IMG/VR virus record: IMGVR_UViG_3300044846_000612
Span: 1-32,563 of that record
DNA length: 32,563 nucleotides
From: a virus
Reading direction: 5' to 3' (one strand)
The notes beneath the pieces are model-generated. The model saw only the letters and a list, made by a program, of their open reading frames with translations. It ran no database searches and was not told where the DNA came from. This document shows positions 3,263 through 32,563 of the stretch, in pieces. A program made the translations under genes and the position numbers. Within the stretch, counting starts at the first letter, position 1. The number at the start of each line of letters is the position of its first letter.

Positions 3263-3270
3263 TATAAATA
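3263..3270 (+). promoter_or_regulatory. T4-type late promoter of gene 23
   Basis: Exact TATAAATA in the short gap between 22 and 23, 31 bp before the capsid ATG: the same spacing as the gene 22 late promoter. A strong ribosome site (AAAGGGGA) lies between it and the start, as expected for the most abundant virion protein. Confidence 0.87.
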
Positions 3271-3301
3271 AATCTATTGAACACCTAAAGGGGAAAACTA
3301 A

Positions 3302-4588: not shown

Positions 4589-4594
4589 TCGATA

Positions 4595-4613
4595 CCTTCC
4601 CATTAGAGGAAGG
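4595..4613 (+). repeat. Small stem-loop after gene 23
   Basis: A 6-bp perfect stem (CCTTCC with GGAAGG) with a 7-nt loop, beginning 6 bp after the gene 23 stop and followed by GTTGC and A-rich sequence rather than a T-tract. It stands just before the main terminator hairpin, so the capsid mRNA 3' end would carry two tandem stem-loops; a role in protection from 3' exonucleases is inference. Confidence 0.55.
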
Positions 4614-4627
4614 GTTGCAAAAAAACT

Positions 4628-4660
4628 GGGGGGAGCAGAAATGCTCTCCCCATTTTCATT
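4628..4660 (+). terminator. Rho-independent terminator after gene 23
   Basis: A 10-bp stem (left arm GGGGGGAGCA, right arm TGCTCTCCCC, one G-U pair) closed by a GAAA tetraloop and followed by ATTTTCATT. It separates the highly expressed capsid gene from the next late unit, whose TATAAATA begins at the last base of the terminator. Confidence 0.88.
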
Positions 4661-4667
4661 ATAAATA
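4660..4667 (+). promoter_or_regulatory. T4-type late promoter of the tail gene
   Basis: Exact TATAAATA immediately behind the gene 23 terminator, 22 bp before the next ATG, so the leader would be about 16 nt and just able to hold the GAGGGTAA ribosome site. It gives the tail gene an independent late start. Confidence 0.85.
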
Positions 4668-4689
4668 GTATGAAACAAATGAGGGTAAC

Positions 4690-5274: not shown

Positions 5275-5277
5275 AGC

Positions 5278-5306
5278 TTGACATTCCAAGCAAAATTTAG
5301 TATACT
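5278..5306 (+). promoter_or_regulatory. Sigma70-type promoter of uvsY-uvsW
   Basis: TTGACA (5278-5283), a 17-bp spacer and TATACT (5301-5306), ending 26 bp before the uvsY ATG. The -35 begins 3 bp after the preceding stop. It marks the switch from late virion genes to host-polymerase-driven recombination genes. Confidence 0.85.
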
Positions 5307-5332
5307 TATATTATTTTTCTATTGAGGGCATT

Positions 5333-5773
5333 ATGAAACTATCTGAAATTCAAGAGTCATGGACTAAAGACTGCAAGATCGACCAATTAAATCTTGGTCC
5401 AGAATCAACCAAAACTCCAGAGTTGCATTCTAAGTATCTTAACATACTATCAAATTCTAAACTGCAGTTGCGCAAGGCAGAGGCAGATTATTATCGCTTG
5501 CGCAGAACTAAGATGCGGTATTATCGCGGCGAACTTACTCGTGAAGAACTTGAAGAACATGGGTGGAATCAATACCAAGGTCTCAAACCATTAAAAAATG
5601 AGATGGACGATGTTCTTCAGTGTGATGAAGAGATGATCAAACAACAAGACAAGATTGATTATATCAAGGCAGTTTTATATCAATTAGAGCAGATTCTGCG
5701 GTCACTAAATAGTAGGACATGGGATATTAAGTCCGCAATTGAGTGGACCAAATTTACAAATGGATTAATGTGA
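5333..5773 (+). CDS. uvsY: Recombination mediator UvsY
   Basis: 146 aa (T4 UvsY is 137 aa). UvsY is the hexameric mediator that loads UvsX recombinase on gp32-coated single-stranded DNA. Sequence blocks resemble T4 UvsY: an N-terminal MKLSEIQESWTKD, an LHSKYLNILSNSKLQLRKAEADYYRLR helix with the K-R-x-Y-Y-x-G step (RTKMRYYRGEL), and the C-terminal region ending in RSLNSRTWDIKSAIEW-KF. The ribosome site GAGGG lies 5-6 bp before the ATG. It ends with ATGTGA, giving a 4-bp overlap with the preferred GTG start of uvsW. The partner UvsX is encoded at 25.3 kb. Confidence 0.92.
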   Translation: MKLSEIQESWTKDCKIDQLNLGPESTKTPELHSKYLNILSNSKLQLRKAEADYYRLRRTKMRYYRGELTREELEEHGWNQYQGLKPLKNEMDDVLQCDEEMIKQQDKIDYIKAVLYQLEQILRSLNSRTWDIKSAIEWTKFTNGLM

Positions 5774-7272: not shown

Positions 7273-7618
7273 ATTTAAAAATGGCGACCTAGTAATCGCA
7301 TCGATAAGAGACAGTGAAGCGAATGAATTATTCTGGATGGATAATCCTATTGTGGTAGTTCCTTATCCTGTCATCCAAGAAGATGTTGTTGGAGAAACGT
7401 TTCTTCTGAAACCATGGATTGGTATTACTACAGAGAAAACTTTCCTGATACCCAAATCTGAAATAATTACTGTCTGTCTTTTGAGAGAGAATCTCCTCGG
7501 TCAGTATGAAAGATATATCTCAGGAGAAGTAAAGTTCCCCGAGGAAACTCAAGAGGAAAATACAGACATCGATATGCTGCACTCCCGACTACTCAGAAGC
7601 AGGAACCTACTCAATTAA
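7250..7618 (+). CDS. Sm-like-fold phage protein, paralogue of the 21.8-kb gene
   Basis: 122 aa. It starts 23 bp inside the end of uvsW with a GTGAGGA ribosome site, so it is co-translated. The N-terminal strand pattern VIKFKNGDLVIASI, followed by a Pro-containing strand pair (NPIVVVPYPV), LLKPWIG and EIITV, resembles small Sm-like (LSm) beta-barrel proteins common in T4-like marine phages as hypothetical genes. The same order of blocks (K-x3-GD-x-I-I-A, KP, L-x-P-F, ITV, Y) is found in the 99-aa protein at 21802. The C-terminal ~35 residues are an added charged tail. RNA binding is suggested only by fold analogy. Confidence 0.75.
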   Translation: METPKVIKFKNGDLVIASIRDSEANELFWMDNPIVVVPYPVIQEDVVGETFLLKPWIGITTEKTFLIPKSEIITVCLLRENLLGQYERYISGEVKFPEETQEENTDIDMLHSRLLRSRNLLN

Positions 7619-7720
7619 GCAGTAGTAAAGCTATTATTCATCATACTCGACATAGTCATTATACCTCGAAACGCGAGTGTTGTCAAGCCTTTATCGCGAA
7701 ATAATAGTGAAAAAAAATCA

Positions 7721-7749
7721 TTGACTAATAAGAAAAAGTATAGTATAAC
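7721..7749 (+). promoter_or_regulatory. Sigma70-type promoter of gene 55
   Basis: TTGACT, 17-bp spacer, TATAAC, with the flanking sequence AAAAAGTATAGTATA that recurs in the promoters at 21169 and 28514. It stands in the 154-bp gap 7619-7772, the largest in the window; the rest of that gap shows only a weak CTCG/CGAG stem near 7665-7677 and no T-tract, so I call no terminator there. Host-type recognition fits production of gp55 before late transcription. Confidence 0.85.
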
Positions 7750-7772
7750 GGTATGTATAGATGGAGTTATAA

Positions 7773-8384
7773 ATGACTGAAATACCAGAAAAAAATGTGA
7801 AGAAACCATTCAAAAAGAATAAGAAAAACAACATACATTATGTAGATAACTCTAAGTTTCTTGAAGAGATTACTAAGTATCGAGATAGTGTTATTGCTGC
7901 AAACGAAGCAGGAGTATTGAAACCACGAGTTCCCAACTATATCGGAGAATGCTTTCTAAAGATCGCAACTCACTTGGCATACAAGAGTAACTTTATCAAC
8001 TACACATATCGAGAAGAAATGGTGTCGGATGGTATTGAAAATTGTATTACTTACATCGATAACTTTAATCCTGAGAAATCTAAGAATCCCTTCGCGTACT
8101 TCACTCAGATAACATACTATGCTTTCCTTCGTCGTATCGCTAAAGAGAAACGCCAACAGCAAACGAAGTATCGATACATGAGAAACATTGATGTTCATGA
8201 CTTGATTACTCAAGACCACGATACAGGTGACTATGGTAATGAGTTTATTGACTATGTTAAGAAGCAGATGGACATGATTGATGACTTCGACAAACCAGAA
8301 TCAGCAAAGGTCAGTAACATACCAAAACGTCGACCAAAATATTTAGACCAAAAAATCATTGACAATTCTCTTGATATAGAGTAG
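7773..8384 (+). CDS. 55: Late-transcription sigma factor gp55
   Basis: 203 aa (T4 gp55 is 185 aa). This divergent sigma directs host RNA polymerase to TATAAATA promoters and is activated by the sliding clamp and gp33. The T4 gp55 core is visible: REEMVSDGIENCITYIDNFNPEKSKNPFAYFTQITYYAFLRRIAKEKR corresponds to [47 protein letters not shown] (sigma region 2-like). The N-terminus is Lys-rich and the tail long. T4 gp55 ends in a hydrophobic clamp-binding peptide after SLD; here the protein ends in SLDIE, so that epitope is shortened or altered. Six TATAAATA elements in promoter positions in this window fit its activity. The ATG follows GGAG (GATGGAGTTATAA). Confidence 0.95.
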   Translation: MTEIPEKNVKKPFKKNKKNNIHYVDNSKFLEEITKYRDSVIAANEAGVLKPRVPNYIGECFLKIATHLAYKSNFINYTYREEMVSDGIENCITYIDNFNPEKSKNPFAYFTQITYYAFLRRIAKEKRQQQTKYRYMRNIDVHDLITQDHDTGDYGNEFIDYVKKQMDMIDDFDKPESAKVSNIPKRRPKYLDQKIIDNSLDIE

Positions 8385-8387
8385 AAT
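8359..8387 (+). promoter_or_regulatory. Sigma70-type promoter inside the end of gene 55
   Basis: TTGACA (8359-8364), 17-bp spacer and TAGAAT (8382-8387); the -10 overlaps the gene 55 stop. The flank GTAGAATGGAA resembles the AGGGTAGAATG promoters at 13.6-16.5 kb. It would start an mRNA about 26 nt before the membrane-protein ATG and read into 47-46. Confidence 0.82.
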
Positions 8388-8419
8388 GGAATTATTAAAG
8401 ATTGTTAAAGGAGTTGTTT

Positions 8420-8734
8420 ATGACTGAAGTAAAAACTAACAAGTACGTTGCATGGTTCACTGAAAACTGGTTTACTGTATTTGTCTTTCTTGCGTTTGCA
8501 TTGATTATCGCGGCAGTATCCAGTAATATTAGCAACCATAGGAATGGCGTCCAAGGTGTGTCTAAGCAGAATGCAGGGTGCATCTATCTTGAGTCAAGTG
8601 ATCTTGGCGAAGGTCAACACTACATGATCTGCGACGGTCAAATTGTTCTTAAGCGCCTCGCAGAAGAAGGTGAAGCAGAACCAACGACTGAAGAAAAGTT
8701 GGAAGAAGTAGTTCCTACTGCACCTGCAAAGTAA
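8420..8734 (+). CDS. Small single-span membrane protein between genes 55 and 47
   Basis: 104 aa from the ATG at 8420, chosen because AAAGGAG lies 6-12 bp upstream (a TTG 18 bp earlier is in frame but lacks a site). One hydrophobic segment, about residues 17-36 (WFTVFVFLAFALIIAAV), is followed by a soluble part with two Cys (NAGCIYLES and MICDGQIV) and a Glu/Pro-rich tail. No lipobox or cleavage site is convincing, so it is probably an inner-membrane protein. I do not recognise it. Its own promoter ends 32 bp upstream, and 15 bp separate it from gene 47. Function unknown; the pair of Cys could form a disulfide if the C-terminus is periplasmic. Confidence 0.82.
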   Translation: MTEVKTNKYVAWFTENWFTVFVFLAFALIIAAVSSNISNHRNGVQGVSKQNAGCIYLESSDLGEGQHYMICDGQIVLKRLAEEGEAEPTTEEKLEEVVPTAPAK

Positions 8735-8749
8735 TTAGAAAGTTCAAGT

Positions 8750-9805
8750 ATGAAGGTTGCGTTGATCACAGACACTCACTTCGGTGCTAGGTCAGATTCT
8801 ATTCCGTTTGATAACTTCTTCGCGAAGTTTTATACTGAGGTGTTTTTCCCACACCTTGAGCAAGCAGGAATCAAAACCATTATTCATCTTGGTGATGTTT
8901 TTGATCGCCGCAAGTTTATCAATTACAACACACTAAAAAAGTGTCGTGAGTATTTCTTCGATAAAGCACGAGATCTCGGCATCGACGTGCACATGATCGC
9001 AGGAAACCACGACACATTTTTCAAGAATACCAATGAGGTAAACTCACTAGACCTGCTGCTTCGTGAATATGGAAACGTTATTACATATTCTGATGCAGAG
9101 GAAATTAAGATTGATGGGAAGAATCTATTGCTCGTGCCATGGATTTGTTCTGGTAATTATGATGAAACCATGGAGGTTGTAGATAAAAGTAATGCACAAG
9201 CAGTATTCGGACACTTTGAATTTTCAGGCTTTGAAATGTATCGTGGGCATAAAAATGATCATGGGATGGGCACTGAACGTTTTGATAGATTTCCTCTCGT
9301 TTGTTCTGGTCATTTTCACCATCGCAGTCGGACTGGTAACATTCTGTATCTTGGTAATACCTATGAGTTTACTTGGTCTGACTATAATGACCCTAGAGGG
9401 TATCACTTATATGACACGGAAACTAACGAGGTAGAATTTCATGAGAACCCATTTCAAATCTTTCATAAAATCTATTATGATGATACTACTAGTGATCCTA
9501 ATAGTATGGACCTTGGACCAATTGTTGGTAGTTGCGTAAGGTTGGTCGTAGTTAAGAAGACAGACTTCTATAAGTTTGATCGCTTCGTTGATAAACTATA
9601 TGACTGCGATCTAATCGAACTAAAGATAATTGAAGACTTCTCTGAGTTTGAGGCAGATGTAATTGAAGAAGACAAGATGGACGTTGAAGATACGATGACC
9701 GTACTATCTGATTTTGTTGATACTGTTAGCACTGACCTCGATAAAGATAAAATTAAAAACATGTTAAGAACTTTGTATATTGAGGCACAGCACGTTTCTG
9801 TATGA
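8750..9805 (+). CDS. 47: Recombination nuclease subunit gp47 (Mre11/SbcD-like)
   Basis: 351 aa, about T4 size (339 aa). This metallophosphoesterase nuclease subunit of the gp46/gp47 complex resects double-strand ends for recombination-dependent replication and host DNA breakdown. Calcineurin-type motifs in order: D8-x-H10 in ITDTHFG, G-D49 in HLGDVFDRR, G-N-H-D (85-88), a GHFEFSG segment and G-H-F-H-H in CSGHFHHRS. The C-terminal capping and gp46-binding region follows. The spacing to the preceding gene is 15 bp with only a weak AGAAAG ribosome site. It ends in ATGA overlapping gene 46, so the two subunits are coupled. Confidence 0.96.
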   Translation: MKVALITDTHFGARSDSIPFDNFFAKFYTEVFFPHLEQAGIKTIIHLGDVFDRRKFINYNTLKKCREYFFDKARDLGIDVHMIAGNHDTFFKNTNEVNSLDLLLREYGNVITYSDAEEIKIDGKNLLLVPWICSGNYDETMEVVDKSNAQAVFGHFEFSGFEMYRGHKNDHGMGTERFDRFPLVCSGHFHHRSRTGNILYLGNTYEFTWSDYNDPRGYHLYDTETNEVEFHENPFQIFHKIYYDDTTSDPNSMDLGPIVGSCVRLVVVKKTDFYKFDRFVDKLYDCDLIELKIIEDFSEFEADVIEEDKMDVEDTMTVLSDFVDTVSTDLDKDKIKNMLRTLYIEAQHVSV

Positions 9806-11517
9806 TAATTTTTAAAACTATACGTTGGAAGAATTTACTTTCAACAGGTAATGCTTTCACTGAAATTAAACTCAACCGTTCGCCCAGCACTTTGATTGTT
9901 GGTGAGAATGGTGGCGGTAAATCGACTATGCTCGATGCTCTTTGCTTTGGATTGTTTGGTAAACCATTTCGCGGCATCAATAAACCGCAACTGATGAATT
10001 CTATCAACAAGAAAAATCTTCTGGTTGAAATTGAGTTTGACATTGGTGGTAAAGATTATAAGATTGTTCGTGGTATTAAACCGAACATCTTCGAGATTCA
10101 ATCTGGCGGCGAAGTAATCAATCAGGATGCTGCTGCTCGAGACTATCAAAAGTATCTTGAGGAATCAGTTCTCAAACTAAACTACAAGTCGTTTACTCAG
10201 ATTGTTATTCTGGGTTCAGCATCCTTCACTCCATTCATGCAGTTGCCGCCATTTACTCGTCGTGAGATCATTGAAGATATTCTTGACATTCAGATCTTCA
10301 CGACAATGAATACTGTTCTGCGCGACAAGATGAACGAACTGAAAGATAGTCTTCAGGATGCTGATGGTAAACTAGAAGTCCTGAAGCAGAAAGCAACAAT
10401 TCAGAAAGAATATGTCGATACGCTCGAAGCGAATAAAGAAAAGAGAGTTGATGAAATTATCTCACGAATCGAAGAAGGTGAATTATCCATCGCCAGTTTC
10501 CAGAGTCTTGTTGGAACTCTCGAGGGCAAGAAGATTACACACGAAGATGCCAAGGCAGTGCTTGGAGATCTCAGTGCAAAGCAAAAGAAACTCGACTCGT
10601 TCAAGACCAAGTTTTCCACCCAACTCCGCGATCTCCAAAAGGAGGTGGCATTCTACAAGGAAACGGATGAGTGTCCGACATGTCGGCAAGGCATTGCTCA
10701 CGATCATAAAGAAACCATCGTATCATCCAGACAAGAGAAAATGCAAGAACTATCTTCAGGAATGGAGAAACTCCAAGAAGAATTTACAAAACTTGGAGAA
10801 CTTATCGAGGAAAATGAGACTCTTTCCGAACAAATTTCTGGATTGAGCGCAGAGATTATTGCGAACAACAACGAAATTATTGTTCAACAGCGTCTGATTC
10901 AAGCACTCAATTTAGAACTCAATGACATTGCAACCAAGACTGCAGATATTGATGAAGAAAAAACAAAACTCAAGTCATATGCTAAGGAAGTTCTGACGCA
11001 GAACGAAGAGAAGGCAAGACTGAATGAAGAAAAGCATTACATGGAAGTTGTCTCGACGCTGCTCAAAGACACTGGTATTAAGACTAAGATTATTCGGCAG
11101 TATCTTCCAGTTATCAATAAGTTGGTGAATAAATATCTACAGGCAATGGACTTCTTTGTTCAGTTTAATCTAGACGAGAAGTTTGACGAGACAATCAAGT
11201 CTCGCCATCGCGATGACTTTAGTTATGCTTCGTTCAGTGAAGGTGAGAAGCAGAGGATCGATCTGGCGCTGCTGTTTACTTGGCGCACAATCGCTAAGAT
11301 GAAAAACAGCGTAGCAACTAATCTGCTTATTCTCGATGAGGTATTTGACTCCTCGCTGGATAATAATGGCACCGATTATGTTATGGCATTGCTTGATACT
11401 GTCGGCGAAGATACTAATGTGTTCGTCATCAGTCACAAGGGCGACCAACTGTTCGATAAGTTCCGCAGTTTGATTAAGTTCGAGAAGAAAAATAATTACA
11501 GTGAAATGGTGGTATGA
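9802..11517 (+). CDS. 46: Recombination nuclease ATPase subunit gp46 (Rad50/SbcC-like)
   Basis: 571 aa (T4 gp46 is 560 aa). This SMC-like ATPase pairs with gp47. Walker A is GENGGGKS (34-41). Two coiled-coil arms surround a zinc hook with C291-P-T-C294. The ABC signature is SFSEGEKQRIDLALLF, Walker B/D-loop is LLILDEVFDSSLD and the switch His is in VFVISHKG. The start is the ATG of the ATGA overlap with gene 47; the stop overlaps the deformylase start in the same way. All catalytic elements are intact. Confidence 0.97.
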   Translation: MIIFKTIRWKNLLSTGNAFTEIKLNRSPSTLIVGENGGGKSTMLDALCFGLFGKPFRGINKPQLMNSINKKNLLVEIEFDIGGKDYKIVRGIKPNIFEIQSGGEVINQDAAARDYQKYLEESVLKLNYKSFTQIVILGSASFTPFMQLPPFTRREIIEDILDIQIFTTMNTVLRDKMNELKDSLQDADGKLEVLKQKATIQKEYVDTLEANKEKRVDEIISRIEEGELSIASFQSLVGTLEGKKITHEDAKAVLGDLSAKQKKLDSFKTKFSTQLRDLQKEVAFYKETDECPTCRQGIAHDHKETIVSSRQEKMQELSSGMEKLQEEFTKLGELIEENETLSEQISGLSAEIIANNNEIIVQQRLIQALNLELNDIATKTADIDEEKTKLKSYAKEVLTQNEEKARLNEEKHYMEVVSTLLKDTGIKTKIIRQYLPVINKLVNKYLQAMDFFVQFNLDEKFDETIKSRHRDDFSYASFSEGEKQRIDLALLFTWRTIAKMKNSVATNLLILDEVFDSSLDNNGTDYVMALLDTVGEDTNVFVISHKGDQLFDKFRSLIKFEKKNNYSEMVV

Positions 11518-12032
11518 TGGAATTAATTAAATTTACAGACCCTGCTCTACGCAAGGTTCCAGAGATCTTTGACTTTGAAACACAGAACGCACAAGAACTT
11601 GCCGATACATTGTGGGAAGAATCTAGACGTCTACGAGGACTTGGACTTTCTGCCAATCAAGTTGGTATTGATTCTAAGGTTTTTGTGATGGGATCTGACG
11701 AGACCAATCGTAAGGATGTTTTTAATCCCCATGTAGTTTCTGTCTCCAAGGAAACAGAACTTGCGCGAGAAGGTTGTTTATCATATCCTGGATTATGGTT
11801 GTCTGTTAAGCGTCCCAAGGAAGTGACTCTTTCATATCAGACTGTTACTGGAGAATATGTGGTTGAGACTTTTACGGGTCTACCTGCAAGAATCGCCCAG
11901 CATGAATTTGATCACATGGAAGGATTAAACTTTTCTGATCATGTCTCGCAGTTGAAACTCGACATGGGACTGAAGTCTTTAAACAAACGAGCAAGAAAGT
12001 ATCTGAAGAAATATGTCAAACAAAACTTATGA
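11514..12032 (+). CDS. def: Peptide deformylase
   Basis: 172 aa, the length of bacterial deformylases. It removes the N-formyl group from nascent proteins using a metal held by Cys and two His. All three motifs are intact: G44-L-S-A-N-Q-V-G51, E86-G-C88-L-S, and Q129-H130-E131-F-D-H134. Unlike short cyanophage deformylases it keeps a long C-terminal helical part (residues ~140-172, rich in Lys and Arg). ATGATG gives two possible starts three bases apart; the first overlaps the gene 46 stop. Phage deformylases are known in marine T4-like phages and are thought to help process phage-specific proteins; here it is in an apparent operon with a ClpP-like protease, suggesting a small protein-maturation set. 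Confidence 0.95.
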   Translation: MMELIKFTDPALRKVPEIFDFETQNAQELADTLWEESRRLRGLGLSANQVGIDSKVFVMGSDETNRKDVFNPHVVSVSKETELAREGCLSYPGLWLSVKRPKEVTLSYQTVTGEYVVETFTGLPARIAQHEFDHMEGLNFSDHVSQLKLDMGLKSLNKRARKYLKKYVKQNL

Positions 12033-12384
12033 TTTTGGATTCACATTTGAAGATCCAACCGAAACCGTGGTTCACGTTCGAGAACCATATAATGCCCAAG
12101 AAGATATAGATACCAGCGGTCTCAAAGATGAGATCATGGCAAAACTCTACGACATCGAGTCTCGCATTTTAACTGCAGACCAGACACTAATGATCTCTGA
12201 ACACAAACGACTCGTCGAAATGGAAGTTACAGAGAAACTGAAACAAGTCGAAGATCTAATTCTTCCCCTACTTCATAATCTGATGAAGAATCCTGAGAAG
12301 GAGTATATTCATTGGCCAAACAGGATACCAATTATTGATGCACAAATTGACAAAATCACCGCGATCACGCGACACTATGAATGA
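12013..12384 (+). CDS. Conserved unknown between deformylase and ClpP-like protease
   Basis: 123 aa, overlapping the deformylase end by 20 bp (ATG in AAATATGTC, with GAAG just upstream). The N-terminus is acidic and disordered-looking; the middle is a long amphipathic helix (residues ~35-85). The conserved-looking end contains LLPLLHNLMKNPEKEYIHWPNR followed by IDAQIDKITAITRHYE, a pattern I have seen in hypothetical proteins of T4-like phages but cannot name functionally. Eight bases overlap with the preferred start of the protease gene. No enzymatic motif is visible. Confidence 0.8.
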   Translation: MSNKTYDFGFTFEDPTETVVHVREPYNAQEDIDTSGLKDEIMAKLYDIESRILTADQTLMISEHKRLVEMEVTEKLKQVEDLILPLLHNLMKNPEKEYIHWPNRIPIIDAQIDKITAITRHYE

Positions 12385-12997
12385 TCCTGATCTGCCCTAT
12401 TTTCCCAGAGCAAAATTCTTTCAGCAACCAGTAGCAACTGCTGTAACATTTTATCTCTGTGGTGAAATTAAACCAGCAGAAGATTATGTTGAATGGTTTC
12501 AGATTCTGCGAGCAGCAGGTGAGACTGATATAATTTACATTCGTATTAACAGTGAAGGTGGTGACTTGTTCTCTGCTTTGCAACTGGTTCGTGCGATTCA
12601 GGAATCAAATGCCACTATCGTCTGTTCGGTCGAGGGTATTTGTATGAGTGCTGCTACTTTAATCTTCTTATCAGCAGATAGGTTCGAACTATCTGACCAT
12701 ACCATGTTCATGTTCCATAACTATTCCAGCGGAACAATCGGTAAGGGTGGTGAGATGTATGACCAAATCACACACTTCAGGTCTTGGTCAGAAAAACTGT
12801 TTGATTATTTCTACAAAGACTTTTTGACACCAGATGAAATTAAGTCCATGCTTGATAACAAGGACATCTGGTTAGATGCAGATGAGGTTGGGAAACGATT
12901 GAAGAATCGTATTGCTGCCCAAGAACCAGACGAAGAAGTTGTCGTTGAGGAAACCCCAAAACCAAAACGTGAAAGAAAAAAATCAGTAAACGAATAA
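12377..12997 (+). CDS. ClpP-like serine protease (phage ATP-dependent protease subunit or maturation protease)
   Basis: 206 aa from the ATG at 12377, close to ClpP length. ClpP/crotonase-fold features: YIRINSEGGDLFSALQLVRAI corresponds to ClpP I-x-S-P-G-G; the nucleophile region is E-G-I-C-M-S91-A-A; the catalytic His is in MFMFH114NYSSGTIGKG; the third member is probably Asp163 in DIWLDADEVGKRL. The C-terminal ~25 residues are an acidic then basic tail. An earlier in-frame TTG at 12335 would overlap the previous gene by 50 bp and lacks a ribosome site, so I prefer ATG 12377 (8-bp overlap). No Clp ATPase gene is present here, so it may use a host unfoldase or act alone. Confidence 0.92.
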   Translation: MNDPDLPYFPRAKFFQQPVATAVTFYLCGEIKPAEDYVEWFQILRAAGETDIIYIRINSEGGDLFSALQLVRAIQESNATIVCSVEGICMSAATLIFLSADRFELSDHTMFMFHNYSSGTIGKGGEMYDQITHFRSWSEKLFDYFYKDFLTPDEIKSMLDNKDIWLDADEVGKRLKNRIAAQEPDEEVVVEETPKPKRERKKSVNE

Positions 12998-13003
12998 ATA
13001 GGC

Positions 13004-13032
13004 TTGACTTTTACTAAAAAAGCAGGTATACT
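13004..13032 (+). promoter_or_regulatory. Sigma70-type promoter abutting the HAD gene start codon
   Basis: TTGACT (13004-13009), 17-bp spacer, TATACT (13027-13032). The start codon begins at 13039, only 6 bases after the -10, so the predicted transcript would start at or next to the A of ATG. The upstream flank GGCTTGACTTTT is shared with four other promoters in the window. Confidence 0.82.
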
Positions 13033-13038
13033 GATTGT

Positions 13039-13650
13039 ATGATAAATTTTAAAGATTATATTTTTGAGCGTAAAGAGGGTGCTGGTCTGACCATTTGGGA
13101 TATTGACGAGACCCTCTTCAACACAAAAGCACTCATCTATGTGATGAAGGGTGGAGAAGTCTCCCGTAAGTTATCTAATCAAGAGTTTAACACCTACAAG
13201 TTGGGTGCTGGTGAGTCCTTTGACTTCCGAGAGTTTCGCGATGCTAAACATTTCCGCGACACTTCTGAACCTATCGCAAAAGCGATCAATAAACTAATCG
13301 CGATTCATAAGAACGTAAAGGCAAAGGGTAGCAAGATGATTGTTATCACTGCTCGTGCTGACTTTGACGATCGTGACATGTTTCTAGATACCTTCCGCAA
13401 GCAGGGTATTGATATTGATGACATCCATGTGCATCGCGCTGGTAATCTGAATGCACCAAACTCTGCTGCTGGAAAAAAGATTTTCATTAAACAGTATCTC
13501 GACACAGGCAAGTATGCTCGTGTTCGTTTGTTTGATGATGCGACTTCAAATCTTGACATGTTGATTGGTTTAAAAACCGAATATCCAGATGTTGACTTTG
13601 AGGCGTATCTTGCGCATCATGATGGTTCCATGACAAGATATCGTAAATAA
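13039..13650 (+). CDS. HAD-superfamily phosphatase with capsid-targeting-like N-terminus
   Basis: 203 aa. HAD hydrolase motifs: D21-I-D23-E-T-L-F (nucleophile and acid/base), S/T motif in MIVITARADF, Lys in KKIFIKQYL, and the acidic motif LFDDATSNLDML. Such phage HADs resemble 5'-nucleotidase or polynucleotide 3'-phosphatase-like enzymes; the substrate cannot be told. The first ten residues, M-I-N-F-K-D-Y-I-F-E, have the same spacing of aromatic, aromatic, Ile and Glu as the T4 internal-protein capsid-targeting peptide MKTYQEFIAE, and I-F-E fits a gp21 cleavage site. The start is fixed by this N-terminus; the only ribosome-site-like GCAGG is 12 bases upstream, inside the promoter. Promoter spacing suggests a leaderless mRNA. 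Confidence 0.9.
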   Translation: MINFKDYIFERKEGAGLTIWDIDETLFNTKALIYVMKGGEVSRKLSNQEFNTYKLGAGESFDFREFRDAKHFRDTSEPIAKAINKLIAIHKNVKAKGSKMIVITARADFDDRDMFLDTFRKQGIDIDDIHVHRAGNLNAPNSAAGKKIFIKQYLDTGKYARVRLFDDATSNLDMLIGLKTEYPDVDFEAYLAHHDGSMTRYRK

Positions 13651-13654
13651 GGGC

Positions 13655-13683
13655 TTGACTTTTGTTGGGTTTTAGGGTAGAAT
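13655..13683 (+). promoter_or_regulatory. Sigma70-type promoter, GGGCTTGAC...AGGGTAGAATG family
   Basis: TTGACT, 17-bp spacer, TAGAAT (13678-13683); preceded by GGGC 4 bp after the HAD stop. It is nearly identical to the promoters at 14080 and 16425 in the -35 flank and in TTTAGGGTAGAATGGAATA. Confidence 0.86.
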
Positions 13684-13706
13684 GGAATAATAGAAGGAGA
13701 AAGTTT

Positions 13707-14054
13707 ATGATTAAATCTGTTGTCGTAAGTTTGGTTGCCCTAAGTGTTGCTTTTGTTCCTGTCGCTGCTGAGGCACGCAACCGAGATGGAAATGGTTGGG
13801 AACAACGTAGGGATGACCGCCAGCATAGACGTTCGCGTATTAGCACGGGTGAGGCAATTGCTATCGGCGTAGGTGCATTTATTCTTGGTGCTGCTGCTAG
13901 TCGTAAACAACCCGCAGAACGTGAAGTTGACCGTGAAGTCTATGATCGTGAATATGGTTATCACTATCGCCGCCAGAATTGTCGCGAAGTTTTTACCAGC
14001 GGCATAGACAGATATGGTGACTACTATGAAAAGCGCATCACTCGCTGTAATTAA
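13707..14054 (+). CDS. Secreted or envelope glycine-zipper-type protein
   Basis: 115 aa from the ATG at 13707 (GAAGGAGAAAG site 5 bp upstream; an in-frame TTG 45 bp earlier lies within the promoter). Signal peptide: MIKSVVVSLVALSVAFVPVAAEA, probable cleavage after AEA near residue 23. An Arg/Asp/His-rich stretch follows, then a Gly/Ala-rich hydrophobic segment (EAIAIGVGAFILGAAAS, about residues 49-65) of glycine-zipper type, and an Arg/Tyr-rich C-terminus with two Cys (QNCREVF and the penultimate Cys). This looks like small envelope proteins of proteobacteria rather than a standard T4 gene, so host origin is likely. It may alter the infected cell envelope; that is inference. Confidence 0.85.
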   Translation: MIKSVVVSLVALSVAFVPVAAEARNRDGNGWEQRRDDRQHRRSRISTGEAIAIGVGAFILGAAASRKQPAEREVDREVYDREYGYHYRRQNCREVFTSGIDRYGDYYEKRITRCN

Positions 14055-14059
14055 TTTAT

Positions 14060-14077
14060 CCTAAACGTAATTTTAGG
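14060..14077 (+). repeat. Short stem-loop directly before the VWA-gene promoter
   Basis: CCTAAA and TTTAGG form a 6-bp perfect stem with a 6-nt loop, ending two bases before the TTGACA of the next promoter. No T-tract follows. Together with the promoter it resembles a stem-loop/promoter cassette. Confidence 0.45.
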
Positions 14078-14079
14078 GC

Positions 14080-14108
14080 TTGACATTTCTACCACAATAG
14101 GGTAGAAT
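14080..14108 (+). promoter_or_regulatory. Sigma70-type promoter of the VWA/metallopeptidase gene
   Basis: TTGACA, 17-bp spacer, TAGAAT, with TTTTAGGGC before and AGGGTAGAATGAAATA around the -10: a near copy of the promoters at 13655 and 16425. The ATG follows 28 bp later. Confidence 0.88.
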
Positions 14109-14135
14109 GAAATATATTAATTGATGAGGTCTGTG

Positions 14136-16394
14136 ATGTCTATTTCCCATAAGTCTACCCTTGCTAAGTTGCTCGCCACTGAGAACCTTCGGATTGAACA
14201 TCAGAAGGTTCCGACCGCGATGTTCGACCTGAAGAACCGCACCCTTATCCTCCCCATCTGGAAAGACATGTCGTCCGACCTTTATGACCTGCTTATCGGT
14301 CATGAGGTCGGTCACGCATTGTTCACACCTGCTCAGGGTTGGCACTCAGAACTTGATGCTCGTGGTATGGGTATCAAGTCTTATCTGAACGTCCTTGAAG
14401 ATGCTCGTATCGAGCGCAAGATTAAGGACAAGTTTCCTGGTATCCGTCGTAACTTCTTCGCTGGTTATCAGGAACTGTTCGACAATAACTTCTTCGGCGT
14501 TAAGGGATATGACCTCAGCAAGTTGCGTCTCATTGACCGTATCAATCTGCACTATAAGGTTGGTTCTTTCCTCAATGCACCGTTCAGCGCTGATGAGAAT
14601 CAATATCTTGCTCGCGTTGATGCCTTGGAAACATGGGATGATGTTGCTGCGCTCGCAGTAGAACTCTATGAACTCGCTAAATCTGAACCTGAGCATGACT
14701 TTGATTCGTCAAACTTCATGGGTGACATGGGTGCGTTTGATGAGGACGGTGACACAGCAGAGATTGGTGATCAGTGGGGTTCCGACGTGGGTGACGAGTC
14801 AACTGATGAAACTGCACCTTCTAATGGCAATCCTGCTGATGCTGAAGATTCTGATGAAGATGCTAATGATTCTGGTACTTCTGCCGCTGGCGAAAGCGGC
14901 GAAGAAGAAACTGACAAAGAAACTGATACTGACGAAGATGGTGGTATTGCTCCTAATGTTGGCGAAAAACTTCCAGGTTCAGATGATACGCCAATCTTGA
15001 ACGATGACCCTGTTTCTATCACTGATCAAAACTTCCGCGACATGGAAGATACATTCATTGACTCAAAGTCGCGCGAGTATGCGTATGGTATTCTCCGCAA
15101 GGTTGATACCAAGAACTATGTCATCCCCATGGACTGGGTTCTAGAAAACATGCGCCCAACTGTGTATTCTGACAGGTGGTATACCAAGACTGTAGATTAC
15201 GACCCAATCGCGCAAGAAGTTTTCTCTGAGTTCCGCAGCAACAACCAGAAGTATATCAACACCATGGTTCAAGAGTTTGAAATGCGTCGTCGCGCTTCAG
15301 AGTTTGCTCGTGCGCAGACTTCTAAGACTGGTCGTCTTGATGTTGACCGTGTTTGGGCACATAAAATTAGCGAAGACTTGTTCGCTCGCAACACAGTTGT
15401 TCCTAATGGTAAAAACCATGGTATGCTTTTGTTCCTTGACATGTCTGGTTCCATGGCAGGAAACATGCGTGGTACGATTGAACAGTTGGTCACACTGATG
15501 ATGTTTTGCCGTAAGGTTCGTATCCCGTTTGAAGTGTATGGTTTCACCAACAATGGTGTCGTCAATGACAAGTATTCCAAGTCTGATGCCATGCGTGCAA
15601 ATCGTGTCAGTGGCATGGGTTCATCTGACAAGGAACTTGAAATTGGTGACAATTCTTTCAATTTATTGCAGTTTGTTTCCGATACCTGTTCAGTCGCTAA
15701 GTTTAATGAGGTAGTTCGCACTCTTCTTATGTGCGCTAAGGGGTATGATTATTCTGCTCGTCCTTCTCGTCGTGCTGAAATATTCGTTCGTAATTCTCAT
15801 ATCATGGGTCTTGCTTCGACTCCTCTTGAAGAATCAATCATGGTTGCTCGTTCGATTGCTGACAAGTTCCGTGCTAAAAATCGCGTAGAAGTTCTCAATA
15901 CCGTGTTCCTCACCGATGGTGATGGTGATAACAATATCAGTGTCGGAAGTCGTTATGGTGCGCACCATGTCAATATCACAGATGCAAGCACCAATGCTTC
16001 GGTAACAGTTAAGTATAATGATGATGTTTATCGCACTCAACTGCAAGTTGCTCTTCTAGAACTCTACAAGAAGGCAACAGGTTCACGTCTTATCAACTTC
16101 TTCATCGCTCCTCACAATCCCAAGTGGGCAGCAAAGCGTATGCACAATACCACTGAAGATTTTGACACAAAGTGGAAGAATGAATGGAAGCAAAAGTTTT
16201 TCCACACCACAAAATCGTTTGGTTTCGATGATCGCTTTTTGATTCCTGGTGGTAGCGAGTTGACTATCGGTGAAGATGTTTTTGACTCTGAAAGCAGCGA
16301 CCCGAAAGATCTTCGTCGGGCATTTAAGAAGTTCCAAAATACCAAGCAGACCAACCGAGTTCTGCTGAATAAGATGATCCAAGCAGTCGCATAA
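14136..16394 (+). CDS. cobT: CobT-like protein: HExxH metallopeptidase-like domain plus VWA domain
   Basis: 752 aa from ATG 14136 (GAGGT 6 bp upstream). The N-terminal domain has H56-E57-V-G-H60 followed by N85-V-L-E-D-A-R-I-E93, the extended zinc-peptidase-like signature known from CobT/VWA proteins (HExxH with downstream E). Residues ~190-300 form a long acidic, low-complexity linker rich in Asp, Glu, Ser and Gly. The C-terminal von Willebrand A domain holds a perfect MIDAS, D435-M-S-G-S439. Partner: the MoxR/CobS-type AAA+ ATPase 360 bp downstream. In bacteria CobS-CobT drives cobalt insertion with CobN; no CobN is present here. A MoxR-VWA chaperone or proteolytic role is equally possible. 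Both the metal-ligand triad and MIDAS are intact, arguing for an active protein. Confidence 0.9.
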   Translation: MSISHKSTLAKLLATENLRIEHQKVPTAMFDLKNRTLILPIWKDMSSDLYDLLIGHEVGHALFTPAQGWHSELDARGMGIKSYLNVLEDARIERKIKDKFPGIRRNFFAGYQELFDNNFFGVKGYDLSKLRLIDRINLHYKVGSFLNAPFSADENQYLARVDALETWDDVAALAVELYELAKSEPEHDFDSSNFMGDMGAFDEDGDTAEIGDQWGSDVGDESTDETAPSNGNPADAEDSDEDANDSGTSAAGESGEEETDKETDTDEDGGIAPNVGEKLPGSDDTPILNDDPVSITDQNFRDMEDTFIDSKSREYAYGILRKVDTKNYVIPMDWVLENMRPTVYSDRWYTKTVDYDPIAQEVFSEFRSNNQKYINTMVQEFEMRRRASEFARAQTSKTGRLDVDRVWAHKISEDLFARNTVVPNGKNHGMLLFLDMSGSMAGNMRGTIEQLVTLMMFCRKVRIPFEVYGFTNNGVVNDKYSKSDAMRANRVSGMGSSDKELEIGDNSFNLLQFVSDTCSVAKFNEVVRTLLMCAKGYDYSARPSRRAEIFVRNSHIMGLASTPLEESIMVARSIADKFRAKNRVEVLNTVFLTDGDGDNNISVGSRYGAHHVNITDASTNASVTVKYNDDVYRTQLQVALLELYKKATGSRLINFFIAPHNPKWAAKRMHNTTEDFDTKWKNEWKQKFFHTTKSFGFDDRFLIPGGSELTIGEDVFDSESSDPKDLRRAFKKFQNTKQTNRVLLNKMIQAVA

Positions 16395-28648: not shown

Positions 28649-29020
28649 ATGACCGAAGAAACTGAATCGCAAGAATTAAATTTGAAGTTGGTCGCAACCA
28701 CATTGGTTTGGACCAATGCAGGAACAGAAGACATGCCTTTGTGGAGAGCATCTGGCGGCAAAGAATATATTATTGCCCGATTTGATTACGAACCAACGCT
28801 ACCAGAGATTGGTGAGGTTATGGATTCCAAGCGACACATGATTGAAAATCATTATCCGCAACTGCATGAAACTCTTTCGGGATGGCAACTGTATATTGAT
28901 GGAACAATGACACACAATGAATTCATGCAGTATAACTTGACGCAAGCGGTGGACTTTCCTGCAACCGACTTGACTGTCGTTGATGCCTCTGAGGAGATGG
29001 CGGGAATTGTCGCGCAATAA
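28649..29020 (+). CDS. Unknown 123-aa protein after the tRNA
   Basis: AAGGA 6 bp before the ATG. Acidic start (MTEETESQELN), then mixed sequence with LVATTLVWTNAG, a central EYIIARFDYEP, and a helix MDSKRHMIENHYPQLHETL. No signal peptide, membrane segment or known motif. It overlaps the start of the first glycosyltransferase by 14 bp (with the TTG start) and is probably co-transcribed with the tRNA and the two transferases. Confidence 0.75.
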   Translation: MTEETESQELNLKLVATTLVWTNAGTEDMPLWRASGGKEYIIARFDYEPTLPEIGEVMDSKRHMIENHYPQLHETLSGWQLYIDGTMTHNEFMQYNLTQAVDFPATDLTVVDASEEMAGIVAQ

Positions 29021-29714
29021 TATAACAATTATTCAAACGTATTACAATGAAAGATCCCATCTCGAAACTCAAATCGAGAGATGGAATTGCTATAATACTC
29101 CAGTAAATATTATATTAATTGATGATGGTTCTCAGATAGAACCTGCAGAAAATGTTCTTAAGGAACATACACTAGATGATAATATTAATTTTTCATTGTA
29201 TAAAGTCACTGAAGATATTGGATTTAACAGTCATGGTTGTCGCAATCTTGGCGCAAAACTGGCACAATCTAACTGGTTATTGTTTCTAGACATAGACTAC
29301 ACACTGCAACCATCTGATCTCAAGAAGTTGCAAACCGAAACCCTCGATCTTAATTCTTGGTATGAAATGAATGCCAAGTTTCAAGGTCGAGGGAATCCGT
29401 ACATGGCATTAAACCAATTTATCATTACTAGAAAAATGTTTTTAGAAGATGGCGGATATGATGAGTCTTGGGTTCCATTTCACATGGGTGATAGAGAATT
29501 GCTCGCAAGATTGGAAAGCAAATACAACAAGAAAAACCTTGATTGGTTAAATTTAACATGTCGCCGTGGAGGTCGAAAAGCAGTCATTGATGATACTGCT
29601 ACGATTCCAGTATACGATGATGATAAAATGATATTTTATACTCGTCGTTTTGATATAAAATATATCGTGCACAAAGATACTAAATTGAATTTCAAATGGG
29701 AGAAAGTCATATGA
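29007..29714 (+). CDS. Family-2-type glycosyltransferase, copy A
   Basis: 235 aa from TTG 29007, preferred because GAGGAG lies 10-15 bp upstream and the N-terminus (NNITIIQTYYN) then aligns with copy B (MNSIAIIQTYYD). An in-frame ATG 24 bp earlier is possible. GT-A fold: IILIDDGS (nucleotide-binding), VTEDIGFNSHGCRNLGA, and the metal-binding D-x-D motif in LLFLDIDYTL; later GGYDESWVPFHMGDRELLARL. The end LNFKWEKVI matches copy B. Acceptor and sugar are not predictable; phage DNA, virion proteins or host surface glycan are all possible. Confidence 0.88.
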   Translation: MSRNNITIIQTYYNERSHLETQIERWNCYNTPVNIILIDDGSQIEPAENVLKEHTLDDNINFSLYKVTEDIGFNSHGCRNLGAKLAQSNWLLFLDIDYTLQPSDLKKLQTETLDLNSWYEMNAKFQGRGNPYMALNQFIITRKMFLEDGGYDESWVPFHMGDRELLARLESKYNKKNLDWLNLTCRRGGRKAVIDDTATIPVYDDDKMIFYTRRFDIKYIVHKDTKLNFKWEKVI

Positions 29715-30418
29715 ATTCTATTGCCATAATCCAAACATACTATGATGACCCCAATTATTTACAGCAAGCGATTAAAACTTGGAATACGTATGAAATTCCT
29801 ATTTCCATCATCTTGATAGACGATGGATCTCCGCAGTATCCTGCGTCTGAGGTTTTGTCTCAATTTACAATCTCCAATAATGTTAACGTTTCTTTATACA
29901 AAGTGACAGAAGATATTGGATTTAATAGTCATGGATGTAGAAATCTTGGCGCAGCAGTATCTAAATCTGACTGGTTGATTTTTTTAGACATTGATCATTT
30001 CCTGGATCCCGATCAGTTGAATGAATTGTATAAAATGAACCTTTCTGAAGATTCTTGGTATGGGTTTACCACTATTCACAATGGACATAATTTGCTTATG
30101 GGTGGCGGTCCATCAAACACTTTTATGTGCACAAAAACAATGTATGAACAAGGTGGAGGATATGATGAATCGTATACACCATATCATTATGGTGATAGGC
30201 AATTTTTGGCGATGATGAAATCTAAATTCGATTGGATTAAACTAGAAAATATTATAATTGATTGTCGAAGAGCCGGAAGAAAAATGACAATCGACGCCAA
30301 TATAAGTAAACCAATTTATGATAATGATACATGTTCAATAACACACCCTCCATATAATTTGGACGCAGTAGAATTTCACGACAAACGATTGAATTTCAAA
30401 TGGGTACAATTATTATAA
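29711..30418 (+). CDS. Family-2-type glycosyltransferase, copy B (tandem paralogue)
   Basis: 235 aa from ATG 29711 (overlaps the previous stop as ATGA; GGGAGAAAG site). Same order of motifs as copy A: IILIDDGSPQ, the identical run VTEDIGFNSHGCRNLGA, LIFLDIDHFLDPDQ with D-x-D, GGYDES-TPYHYGDRQFLAMM, CRRAGRKMTIDA and final LNFKW. The catalytic core is kept in both copies, while the acceptor-side segments (residues ~115-150: ENGHNLLMGGGPSN-like in B versus NAKFQGRGNPYMALNQ in A) differ, so distinct acceptors are plausible. It ends just before a late promoter. Confidence 0.88.
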   Translation: MNSIAIIQTYYDDPNYLQQAIKTWNTYEIPISIILIDDGSPQYPASEVLSQFTISNNVNVSLYKVTEDIGFNSHGCRNLGAAVSKSDWLIFLDIDHFLDPDQLNELYKMNLSEDSWYGFTTIHNGHNLLMGGGPSNTFMCTKTMYEQGGGYDESYTPYHYGDRQFLAMMKSKFDWIKLENIIIDCRRAGRKMTIDANISKPIYDNDTCSITHPPYNLDAVEFHDKRLNFKWVQLL

Positions 30419-30421
30419 ATA
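30414..30421 (+). promoter_or_regulatory. T4-type late promoter of the DUF6267-like gene
   Basis: Exact TATAAATA overlapping the stop codon of glycosyltransferase B (as at gene 22), 29 bp before the next ATG. It places the two following genes in the late class. Confidence 0.85.
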
Positions 30422-30450: not shown

Positions 30451-31566
30451 ATGCAAAGTTTCTTATCATTCCTTTCCGAAGCAGCAATTCTTCATATTGA
30501 GCATCCATCCGATAGACTATTTGATGGACCGCAACCAGCAAAGCATGCACTGAAGACATTAAAGCAGGTTTCTGCCAGTAAAGCACCGAGTATGACTCGT
30601 AAGATTGATGACAAAATGTCATTCAATGTTATTCGCGCAGCAGATGGCAAAGTTGGTGTTAAGTATAAGGGAACGGGTTCTTCTTACAATTTTTCTCAAG
30701 ACGAGATTCAAACGCAGCATGGTCATAAACCATATCTTGCGAAACCACTTGGGTTACTTCTACAACATCTTCCAAAAGTTATTCCGCATACTCCAGGCGA
30801 GTATCAGGGCGGATACATGTCAGATCGTGAATCTAGAGCGCATGAAAATGGAAAGATTTCTCATACACCAAACACAATTAAATATGAGACAGATGCTAAT
30901 AGTCCTGAAGGCAAGGCACTTGCTAAATCTAAAGTAAGCGCTGTCATTCACACTAAGATTACCCCAGCAGGAGCAAAACCTCTTACTAATCTTGATGGTT
31001 TCAATCATCACCCTGATGTTCATCTTGTTCAACACCTTGTGTCAAAAGATCAAGCGGTTATTCCAAAAGAACATAAGTCTAAAGCAGATAACCATCTGAA
31101 ACAGGCAGAGCAAATGATGGCATCGCATACGTATGACCATCATGTTGGGCACGAACGAACACTTCGTCAGTATATTAACTCAACCTTGTCGTCTGATGAT
31201 ACACCATCAACACAAGGGTATAAGGGTTATCTTGCAAAGTGGCATCAGAAAAAGATTGATTCAGTTAAAACTGACAAGGCGAAGGTTGCTAAGAAGAAGG
31301 TGATGGATGACGCCATCGATCATGCTTCCAAAAACCAAAAACAATTCAACGACACCTTAGAAATACATCACCATTTGCAACAGGCAACTAATCACCTTTC
31401 GAGAGGATTAGATTCTTCTGGTGCAGGTGGTTTCACTACATCTATTGCTGGTGAAGCAGCAGGTGGTGAAGGTCATGTTTATAATGGTCTGAAGGTTGTT
31501 GACCGTCAAGGATTCTCCGTCGCAAATCGTGCTCGCAGTGAAATTTTGAAAACGAGCAAAGGATAA
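30451..31566 (+). CDS. DUF6267-like protein with predicted capsid-targeting peptide
   Basis: 371 aa. First ten residues MQSFLSFLSE followed by Ala match the spacing of T4 internal-protein targeting peptide MKTYQEFIAE|A, and F-L-S-E|A resembles the T4 gp23 cleavage F-L-T-E|A, so gp21 processing after Glu10 is predicted. Then AAILHIEHPSDRLFDG, a KIDDKMSFNVIRAADGKVGVKYKG block and LGLLLQHLPKVIPHTPGEYQGGYMS, the order seen in phage DUF6267 proteins, which resemble nucleotidyltransferase/ligase folds (K-x-D-G and Y-Q-G-D-L-M in typical members). Here the Gly of K-x-D-G is Asp and YQGDLM is YQGGYM, so the catalytic residues look altered. The His/Lys-rich C-terminal half is helical. Weak ribosome site AGGAT. 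Confidence 0.8.
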   Translation: MQSFLSFLSEAAILHIEHPSDRLFDGPQPAKHALKTLKQVSASKAPSMTRKIDDKMSFNVIRAADGKVGVKYKGTGSSYNFSQDEIQTQHGHKPYLAKPLGLLLQHLPKVIPHTPGEYQGGYMSDRESRAHENGKISHTPNTIKYETDANSPEGKALAKSKVSAVIHTKITPAGAKPLTNLDGFNHHPDVHLVQHLVSKDQAVIPKEHKSKADNHLKQAEQMMASHTYDHHVGHERTLRQYINSTLSSDDTPSTQGYKGYLAKWHQKKIDSVKTDKAKVAKKKVMDDAIDHASKNQKQFNDTLEIHHHLQQATNHLSRGLDSSGAGGFTTSIAGEAAGGEGHVYNGLKVVDRQGFSVANRARSEILKTSKG

Positions 31567-32177
31567 TGAGTGAAACACATCACTTGACAATAGGTAGATT
31601 CGCACCTGTTCATGCTGGTCATGCATTGATGATCAACAAGGTTTTAGATGCAGCAAGATCTGACAATGCAACTCATACTATTCTAACCACTGCTTCCCAT
31701 GATGGCAATAAAAACCCTCTTACTCCAGAGCAAAAGGTCAAGCATCTCAAGAGAGCATTTCCTTCTGCGAATATTGAAGCAATGAGCAAGGGTGCACCAA
31801 CTCTACTCCATCACTTGTCTAAATTGCACAGTCAAGGTGCGAAAAATATCGTTGTTCATGCTGGATCTGATAGAGCGCATGAATACCACACATTAATACA
31901 CAAGTATAATGGTGTCGAATCTCGCCATGGTCATTACAATTTTGATTCGATAAAGGTGAAGACAGTAGGTGCAGTTAGAACTGATGCTGACGAAGGTGTC
32001 GCTGGTGCATCCGCAACTAAGATGCGTAACGCAGCATCTTCGGGTGATGAGAAAACATTCCATGCCATGTCACCAACTTCTATGTCAACTACTCATAAAC
32101 GTGAGATGTATAAGGATGTTCGACGTGGTCTGGGAATTCAAGAGTCGATCTCATTCAAACAGTTTTTAGATATATAA
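31566..32177 (+). CDS. HxGH nucleotidylyltransferase (NMNAT/cytidylyltransferase-like)
   Basis: 203 aa, coupled to the previous gene (TAATG). Adenylyl/cytidylyltransferase fold: GRFAPVH16-A-G-H19 near the N-terminus and G-A-S149-A-T151-K-M-R154, the I-S-x-T-x-x-R-type signature. ILTTASHDGNKNPLTPEQKVKHLKRAFP and NIVVHAGSDRAHEY are usual elements of phage members annotated as cytidylyl- or nicotinamide-nucleotide adenylyltransferases. The C-terminus, ESISFKQFLDI, is unusual in repeating the F-x-x-F-L pattern of capsid-targeting-like peptides. Expression would be late, from 30414. Substrate is not determinable. Confidence 0.88.
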   Translation: MSETHHLTIGRFAPVHAGHALMINKVLDAARSDNATHTILTTASHDGNKNPLTPEQKVKHLKRAFPSANIEAMSKGAPTLLHHLSKLHSQGAKNIVVHAGSDRAHEYHTLIHKYNGVESRHGHYNFDSIKVKTVGAVRTDADEGVAGASATKMRNAASSGDEKTFHAMSPTSMSTTHKREMYKDVRRGLGIQESISFKQFLDI

Positions 32178-32180
32178 ATA
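32173..32180 (+). promoter_or_regulatory. T4-type late promoter of the spanin gene
   Basis: Exact TATAAATA overlapping the end of the transferase gene (stop 32175-32177), 16 bp before the next ATG; the leader would be about 10 nt with AAGGA at 32185-32189 at its start. Confidence 0.82.
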
Positions 32181-32196: not shown

Positions 32197-32563
32197 ATGT
32201 TCGGTATGATCCCATTACCATATAAGTTACTGGCAGGTGCTGCTTTAATACTTGGTGTGTTTGTATATGGATACATGAAGGGATCTGCTTATGCCGAGGC
32301 AGAACTACAAAGATTTGCTGCTAAAGCAAGCGCACAAGTTGCTGAACTGGAGAAAAAAAATTCAGAGATTAGCAATAATGTAGTTACTGAATATGTTGAT
32401 AGAACAAATACAATTAGAGAGAAAGAATATGTTTATGTTGATGCCGCTAAAAACACTGTTCCTAGTCAGTCTGTTATGTCTAACGGTTGGGTGTTCACGC
32501 ACGACATTAGTGCCAGTGCCAGTGATGCCGACGCCACCAGAAGTTCTGATGCGTCCCCCTCAG
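32197..32563 (+). CDS. Inner-membrane spanin (Rz-like), truncated by the window end
   Basis: 122 complete codons are visible; the stop lies beyond the right edge. Start ATG 32197 with AAGGA 7 bp upstream. One N-terminal transmembrane segment (KLLAGAALILGVFVYGYMKG, residues ~10-29) is followed by a helical coiled-coil region (EAELQRFAAKASAQVAELEKK) and then SNGWVFTHDISASA with D-A-D-A-T-R and D-A-S-P-S, the block seen in Rz-like i-spanins (N-in, C in periplasm). Spanins fuse inner and outer membranes at lysis, so the host is Gram-negative. Late promoter 16 bp upstream fits a lysis gene. Confidence 0.82.
   Translation, partial: MFGMIPLPYKLLAGAALILGVFVYGYMKGSAYAEAELQRFAAKASAQVAELEKKNSEISNNVVTEYVDRTNTIREKEYVYVDAAKNTVPSQSVMSNGWVFTHDISASASDADATRSSDASPS

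Follow-up and report, generated by a model that had tools for sequence, protein, structure and literature searches.

The N-terminal ten residues of the DUF6267 protein encoded by an uncultured T4-like virus of bacteria form a real and very likely functional tag, and comparison with phage T4 supports its assignment as a T4-type capsid-targeting sequence, present in a phage with its own gp21 prohead protease and on a gene located behind a late promoter. We consider it probable that the protein is packaged as cargo in the phage head. The stretch of viral DNA analysed here (32563 bases, hereafter the window) holds the DUF6267 gene at 30451–31566 (+) and that of a cytidylyltransferase/NMNAT-like partner at 31566–32177 (+); a DNA-level search of the isolate collection of known phages, using this gene pair, gave no match.

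The N-terminal tag of the DUF6267 protein

The DUF6267 open reading frame begins with the ATG at 30451 and encodes 371 residues, with the N-terminus MQSFLSFLSEAAILHIEHPSDR. Its match to PF19782 (DUF6267; E 7e-37, 128 bits against a cut-off of 27) spans residues 14–359, and the tag thus lies outside of the DUF6267 domain. In the AlphaFold2 model, which has a pLDDT of 88, residues 1–14 are disordered (pLDDT <50). The tag itself, MQSFLSFLSE, is encoded at 30451–30480 (+), with a gp21 cut predicted after codon 10 and the codon for Ala11 following directly at 30481–30483. As the preliminary description of this DNA had pointed out, MQSFLSFLSEA agrees with T4 IPIII at positions 4 and 7 (aromatic), 8 (Ile or Leu), 10 (Glu) and 11 (Ala); the T4 sequence gives MKTYQEFIAEA for both IPIII and IPII, and MKTFKEFTS for IPI. 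IPII and IPIII carry a capsid-targeting sequence (Mullaney and Black 1996, as reviewed in PMC9026906), in which IPIII mutations have assigned residues 4 and 7 to targeting and residues 8 and 10 to processing (PMC9026906).

The late promoter and the phage's own gp21 that had also been claimed were both found. A T4-type late promoter −10 box, TATAAATA, is located at 30414–30421 (+), upstream of the DUF6267–cytidylyltransferase pair, and 79 of 80 homologues likewise have the box no more than 80 nt ahead of DUF6267. The window contains eight copies of the box as compared to 1.5 expected, with at least eight seen in none of 100 shuffles, and such boxes precede gp22, gp23, the tail tube gene, DUF6267 and the next gene. 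Judged from its promoter, DUF6267 would hence be a late-expressed gene. The gp21 protease is encoded at 1437–2105 (+) (phrog_207, E 3e-83), the gp22 scaffold, presumed to be the binding partner of the tag, at 2139–3257 (+) (phrog_237, E 2e-71), and the gp23 major capsid protein at 3302–4588 (+) (phrog_138, E 2e-161). A gp21 site in gp23 of the window is predicted at LFE52|T, as read against FLTE65|A of T4, where gp23 is cut by gp21 inside AFGSFLTE|A.

With regards to the surroundings of the pair, two adjacent and similar GT-A glycosyltransferase-like genes (28980–29714 and 29696–30418), both untagged, are found directly upstream of DUF6267. Downstream, an Rz/spanin-like gene (32197–32562, cut by the window end) has its own late promoter box at 32173–32180 (+), which bounds the transcription unit of the pair.

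Scanning every ATG, GTG and TTG start in six frames of the whole window with the pattern M..[FYW]..[FYW][ILVM].E gave two matches, both of them at genuine genes. One was DUF6267 at 30451 and the other a HAD phosphatase (PHROG polynucleotide kinase family, 13039–13650 (+)) having the tag MINFKDYIFE at 13039–13068, and ATAAATA was found upstream of both starts. Using a chance rate of 7.4e-5 per start, as taken from internal 10-mers of the long ORFs of relatives, 0.0028 matches would be expected among 38 genes, giving a P of about 4e-6 for at least two. The HAD tag was kept in 77 of 77 homologues, with Leu allowed at position 4 in five of these.

Among DUF6267 homologues of the window clade, 79 of 80 had kept the tag. 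Counting position by position over 28 distinct N-terminal DNA sequences of the homologues, we found Phe in 26 and Leu in two at position 4, Phe in 21 and Tyr in seven at position 7, Leu in 19 and Ile in nine at position 8, and Glu in 27 and Pro in one at position 10. These key residues are almost fixed, their synonymous codons being freely mixed, while positions 5 and 6 hold six and four different residues, respectively, and the linker between the tag and HIEHPSDR varies in both length and sequence. The homologue alignment that had been suggested as a check thus gave the anticipated pattern for the window clade, and the conserved positions are exactly those mapped by mutation in IPIII.

Tagged proteins in other phages and in cyanophage virions

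In the 169 kb genome of T4, the strict pattern M..[FYW]..[FYW][IL].E, applied to ORFs of at least 60 residues, matched IPII and IPIII only. A filtered scan found several tagged plausible starts in each of most gp21-bearing phages and none at plausible gene starts of P1, SPO1 and N4, for which no gp21 match was found; in S-RSM4, which has gp21, none of the plausible gene starts carried the strict tag. Several small proteins were tagged in the whole genome of RB69, and relatives of the window had a handful of tagged genes, encoding HAD, DUF6267 and DUF6321 proteins and a basic protein. An intact K-[WY]-D-G accompanies the tag in the DUF6267 proteins of Stenotrophomonas phage DLP6, C48C1 and Methylophilales phage Melnitz. 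The core tag pattern was matched by 59 of 80 DUF6267 proteins in C48C1-like contigs, most of the others being off at one position, and the tag pattern also by 51 of the 70 cytidylyltransferases next to DUF6267 there; in Melnitz-like contigs, 44 of 80 DUF6267 proteins matched. Going by these sequences, the tag is modular, being common to the unrelated HAD, DUF6267, DUF6321 and small basic proteins.

The tagged DUF6321 proteins (MLSFKEFVAEAAVDGKGHKSS) were seen in related contigs (L098:9827-10114, L115:13945 and L110:5146). One DUF6321 protein is fused to a CxC/GYKRKPGTKPC stretch, and there that stretch carries the tag instead.

Cyanophage-like DUF6267 proteins had the tag in 0 of 79 cases, and S-RSM4, S-8S53, MED4-213 and ACG-2014f all have gp21. 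Homologues lacking the N-terminal pattern in gp21 phages, named in the preliminary description as a refutation of its proposal, thus count against it for the family as a whole but not for the window clade, and the view of the tag as belonging to every DUF6267 protein was given up. In many cyanophages it is the cytidylyltransferase gene adjoining DUF6267 that has the tag. In these cyanophages the N-terminus of the cytidylyltransferase bears the tag and DUF6267 is untagged, whereas in the window DUF6267 is the tagged protein and its partner has a C-terminal motif.

Cytidylyltransferase has been detected by mass spectrometry in virions of S-SM1 (PMC3037559), S-SZBM1 (PMC9146016) and S-CREM2 (PMC10665884), and NMNAT, which is of the cytidylyltransferase family, in those of S-SCSM1 (PMC9602691). 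These cyanophage proteins (T4-GC190) belong to the same family as the window partner, being 31–41% identical to the product of 31566–32177, and in S-SM1 and S-SZBM1 the gene adjoins DUF6267, as in the window. All four were found to be tagged, with the N-termini MKKFSAFLNEA (S-SM1), MKNFSSFLTEA (S-CREM2), MRFRQFIIEA (S-SZBM1, shifted by one residue) and MKSFLQFLKEA (S-SCSM1). The untagged DUF6267 proteins of S-SZBM1 (ORF 141) and S-CREM2 (58848–59774) were absent from the virion tables of the respective phages.

The four well-tagged starts of S-CREM2, ORF6 (SAM hydrolase), ORF14 (kinase), ORF136 and ORF154 (cytidylyltransferase), were all among the 52 virion proteins of that phage, ORF136 fitting only with Phe allowed at position 8. 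ORF30 (MNFKKWFKEW), which fits the loosest pattern, was absent from the list. Taking approximately 219 genes in total, Fisher P was 0.003, or 0.012 counting the doubtful ORF30, in a test that is small and partly post hoc, with ORF6 and ORF14 scored blind and ORF136 and ORF154 seen before the scan. Of three tagged S-SZBM1 proteins larger than 100 residues, one was in the list of 30 virion proteins; the tagged proteins _191 and _192 were absent. Pooling of the two phages gave a P of 0.003. Near-matches were furthermore seen in two other virion proteins of S-CREM2, namely LRFASFMAEAA near residues 17–27 of ORF12 (Cas9-like) and MKDLHSFLTEQ in ORF13. In S-CREM2, with its region 3000–15000 among the parts read, the virion SAM hydrolase, APH-like kinase, Cas9-like nuclease and ORF13 carry the tag.

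The authors of the S-CREM2 (PMC10665884) and S-SCSM1 (PMC9602691) studies left undecided whether the non-structural enzymes of their virions are cargo or contamination, and noted that these may be carry-over from the CsCl preparation. That several such enzymes carry the T4 targeting peptide speaks for real cargo in the phages examined. No targeting peptide is named in the section of the S-CREM2 paper that deals with virion-associated proteins, nor in the parts considered of the S-SM1, S-SZBM1 and S-SCSM1 virion papers. In the open literature searched, cyanophages and capsid targeting were joined nowhere except in a T4 review, and DUF6267 was unmentioned. Virions of S-CBWM1, an unrelated cyanophage, were reported to contain an NMNAT-like protein whose N-terminus bears no tag of this kind, which indicates either another packaging route in that phage or carry-over.

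The ligase-like protein and its nucleotidyltransferase partner

The Pfam match, alignments, the AlphaFold2 model and Foldseek point to a possible remote ligase/nucleotidyltransferase-like fold for the DUF6267 protein. Nearly all top Foldseek matches in the PDB were DNA or RNA ligases, weakly so (E at least 0.048, TM about 0.2), while a search of BFVD gave a phage RNA ligase model at E 1.2e-3; a profile search of PDB sequences with DUF6267 returned coiled-coil noise only. Lys51, Asp53, Glu340-Gly341 and Lys348 were invariant in 69 DUF6267 sequences, as would be expected for ligase motifs I (K51-x-D53), IV (EG) and V (Lys). The sole changed residue among these motifs is the Gly of motif I, which is Asp in the window clade. 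The earlier portrayal of the protein as catalytically altered is therefore doubtful with regards to these invariant motifs, and the view of DUF6267 as catalytically dead was set aside for the same reason.

The partner gene starts with an ATG that overlaps the 3′ end of DUF6267. Its product matches PHROG 3041 (E 1e-44), PHROG 395 (E 9e-42) and Pfam CTP_transf_like (PF01467, over the cut-off), and has the motifs GRFAPVHAGH (HxGH type) and SATKMR (SxTKxR-like), by which it is assigned as a nucleotidylyltransferase of the HxGH type. The front half of PHROG 455 matches DUF6267 and its back half the nucleotidyltransferase, which indicates that some phages encode the pair as a fusion, and in BFVD a 591-residue S-PM2 protein named for a cytidyltransferase domain matched the DUF6267 model.

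The N-terminus of the window partner is without the tag. Our view of this protein as wholly tagless was nevertheless revised upon seeing its conserved C-terminal SFKQFLDI (32151–32174 (+)), which we propose as a C-terminal, uncut form of the targeting signal. Within the last 20 residues, SF..F[LIV] was found in 74 of 77 partner orthologues, whereas the 551 other ORFs from the same loci with 150 residues or more had it in no case. The C-terminus of gp21 in the window, VFESFLNRVS, also carries F-x-x-F-L, kept in relatives. A reading in which SFKQFL is merely the end of a folded domain, or a site for binding of DUF6267, and unrelated to packaging, is a serious competitor to which we give somewhat less than even weight. 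It gains from the cleavage-site Glu being missing in most members, and we know of no C-terminal targeting peptide for T4 cargo. It sits less well with the complete lack of the motif among the other ORFs and with the similar C-terminus of gp21, and also with the motif not having been found in the remaining homologues, cyanophage-like ones included, of which many are N-terminally tagged instead.

An F-x-x-F-L resembling the targeting core (VFESFLN, VFEDFLGKL) was seen at the gp21 C-termini of the window clade and of most cyanophages examined.

Proposed packaging and related systems

In the account that we favour, and regard as probable, the first ten residues of DUF6267 would work as a T4-type capsid-targeting sequence. 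The protein would be made late in infection together with the partner nucleotidyltransferase, and aromatic residues 4 and 7 of the tag would bind the gp22 scaffold core of the prohead, whereupon gp21 would cut after Glu10 to give a mature enzyme beginning at Ala11. This enzyme would be retained in the head and enter the next host together with the DNA, with the partner probably co-packaged by means of the related but uncut C-terminal SF-x-x-FL peptide; in cyanophages the tag would have moved to the N-terminus of the partner. For the window's DUF6267 we infer packaging, cleavage and ejection, and the finding of a tagged partner enzyme inside related cyanophage particles suggests that the tag probably marks injected enzymes. 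No neo-N-terminus is known from the literature.

Three other explanations of the N-terminal tag were weighed. The tag could bind the prohead core with DUF6267 helping in the core or in assembly, after which maturation would see it degraded or expelled, so that it is never injected. That gp21, a core worker, ends in the same F-x-x-F-L would suit such a role, and we found no literature report of DUF6267, tagged or otherwise, in a virion. We nonetheless hold it to be unlikely, as tagged proteins are present in the mature virions of four cyanophages and of T4, and as the tagged cargo consists of diverse enzymes rather than structural parts.

Still less probable, to the point of being improbable, is that the peptide forms an amphipathic helix for docking or membrane binding in general and has no relation to the head. 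The F-x-x-F-[IL] pattern is amphipathic, and the model has a short helix at residues 4–9, but the tag needs Glu10, is tied to gp21 phages and missing at the gene starts of P1, SPO1 and N4, and matches a T4 peptide proven to target capsids. As for chance resemblance of a short N-terminus, four constrained positions in ten residues do hold little information for any one protein; the conservation of the tag refutes this explanation, which is left with next to no probability given the P value for two matches in the window, the tagging of nearly all relatives with synonymous drift around fixed residues, and the independent occurrence of the tag on unrelated families.

By its sequence, the DUF6267 protein of the window would thus join the known class of T4-type internal proteins. 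The earlier suggestion of a new kind of internal protein went too far, since enzymes inside T4-like virions had already been reported. The T4 Alt ADP-ribosyltransferase is a head-packaged enzyme that is trimmed by gp21 and injected; it is of a different enzyme family than DUF6267. Cleavage of Alt by gp21 is mentioned in PMC9026906. In P1, an N-terminal capsid signal sends the injected protein DarB into the head (PMC9024508), which parallels our proposal for DUF6267 in that an N-terminal peptide directs an injected protein to the head, but the DarB signal has no consensus in common with the tag and P1 is without a gp21 match.

One portable tag on many enzymes, possibly at either protein end, is of greater interest than DUF6267 alone. 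A wider reading, which we offer tentatively and rate as somewhat less probable than its negation, is that T4-like phages of water bacteria inject an enzyme kit marked by a portable F-x-x-F-[IL]-x-E, either N-terminal and cut or C-terminal and uncut, which shifts between the ligase-like and nucleotidyltransferase partners. It would predict the injected proteome from sequence alone, including cyanophage Cas9-like nucleases, SAM hydrolases and kinases, and as a part of it the pair could be self-feeding, with an NMN-adenylyltransferase recharging a NAD-using ligase. The tagged set of DUF6267, HAD phosphatase and nucleotidyltransferase might, at a guess, be an end-repair or NAD-related kit, and one may speculate that, in the first minutes of infection, the cargo acts on nucleic-acid ends (the ligase-like protein and the HAD phosphatase), on NAD, or on both. 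Enzymes that are injected act ahead of all phage gene expression and thereby bear on counter-defence and host takeover, and the tag provides a simple sequence rule for listing candidate injected proteins of T4-like marine and freshwater phages.

The closest parallels are IPII and IPIII of T4, also a gp21 phage, with the same first ten residues having aromatic 4 and 7, Ile or Leu 8 and Glu 10, then Ala; these are small, phage-specific proteins, whereas the cargo of the window is a conserved 371-residue ligase-like enzyme with a nucleotidyltransferase partner. Among small proteins, a T4 ORF at 19130 (54 residues, MKTFKEFIKED) is a further candidate internal protein, as are tagged ORFs of 76–78 residues at 116296 in RB69 and 102832 in RB49 (MVLEFKQFLYEASIDEFM and MISFKRFLVEAAIDGFM, respectively).
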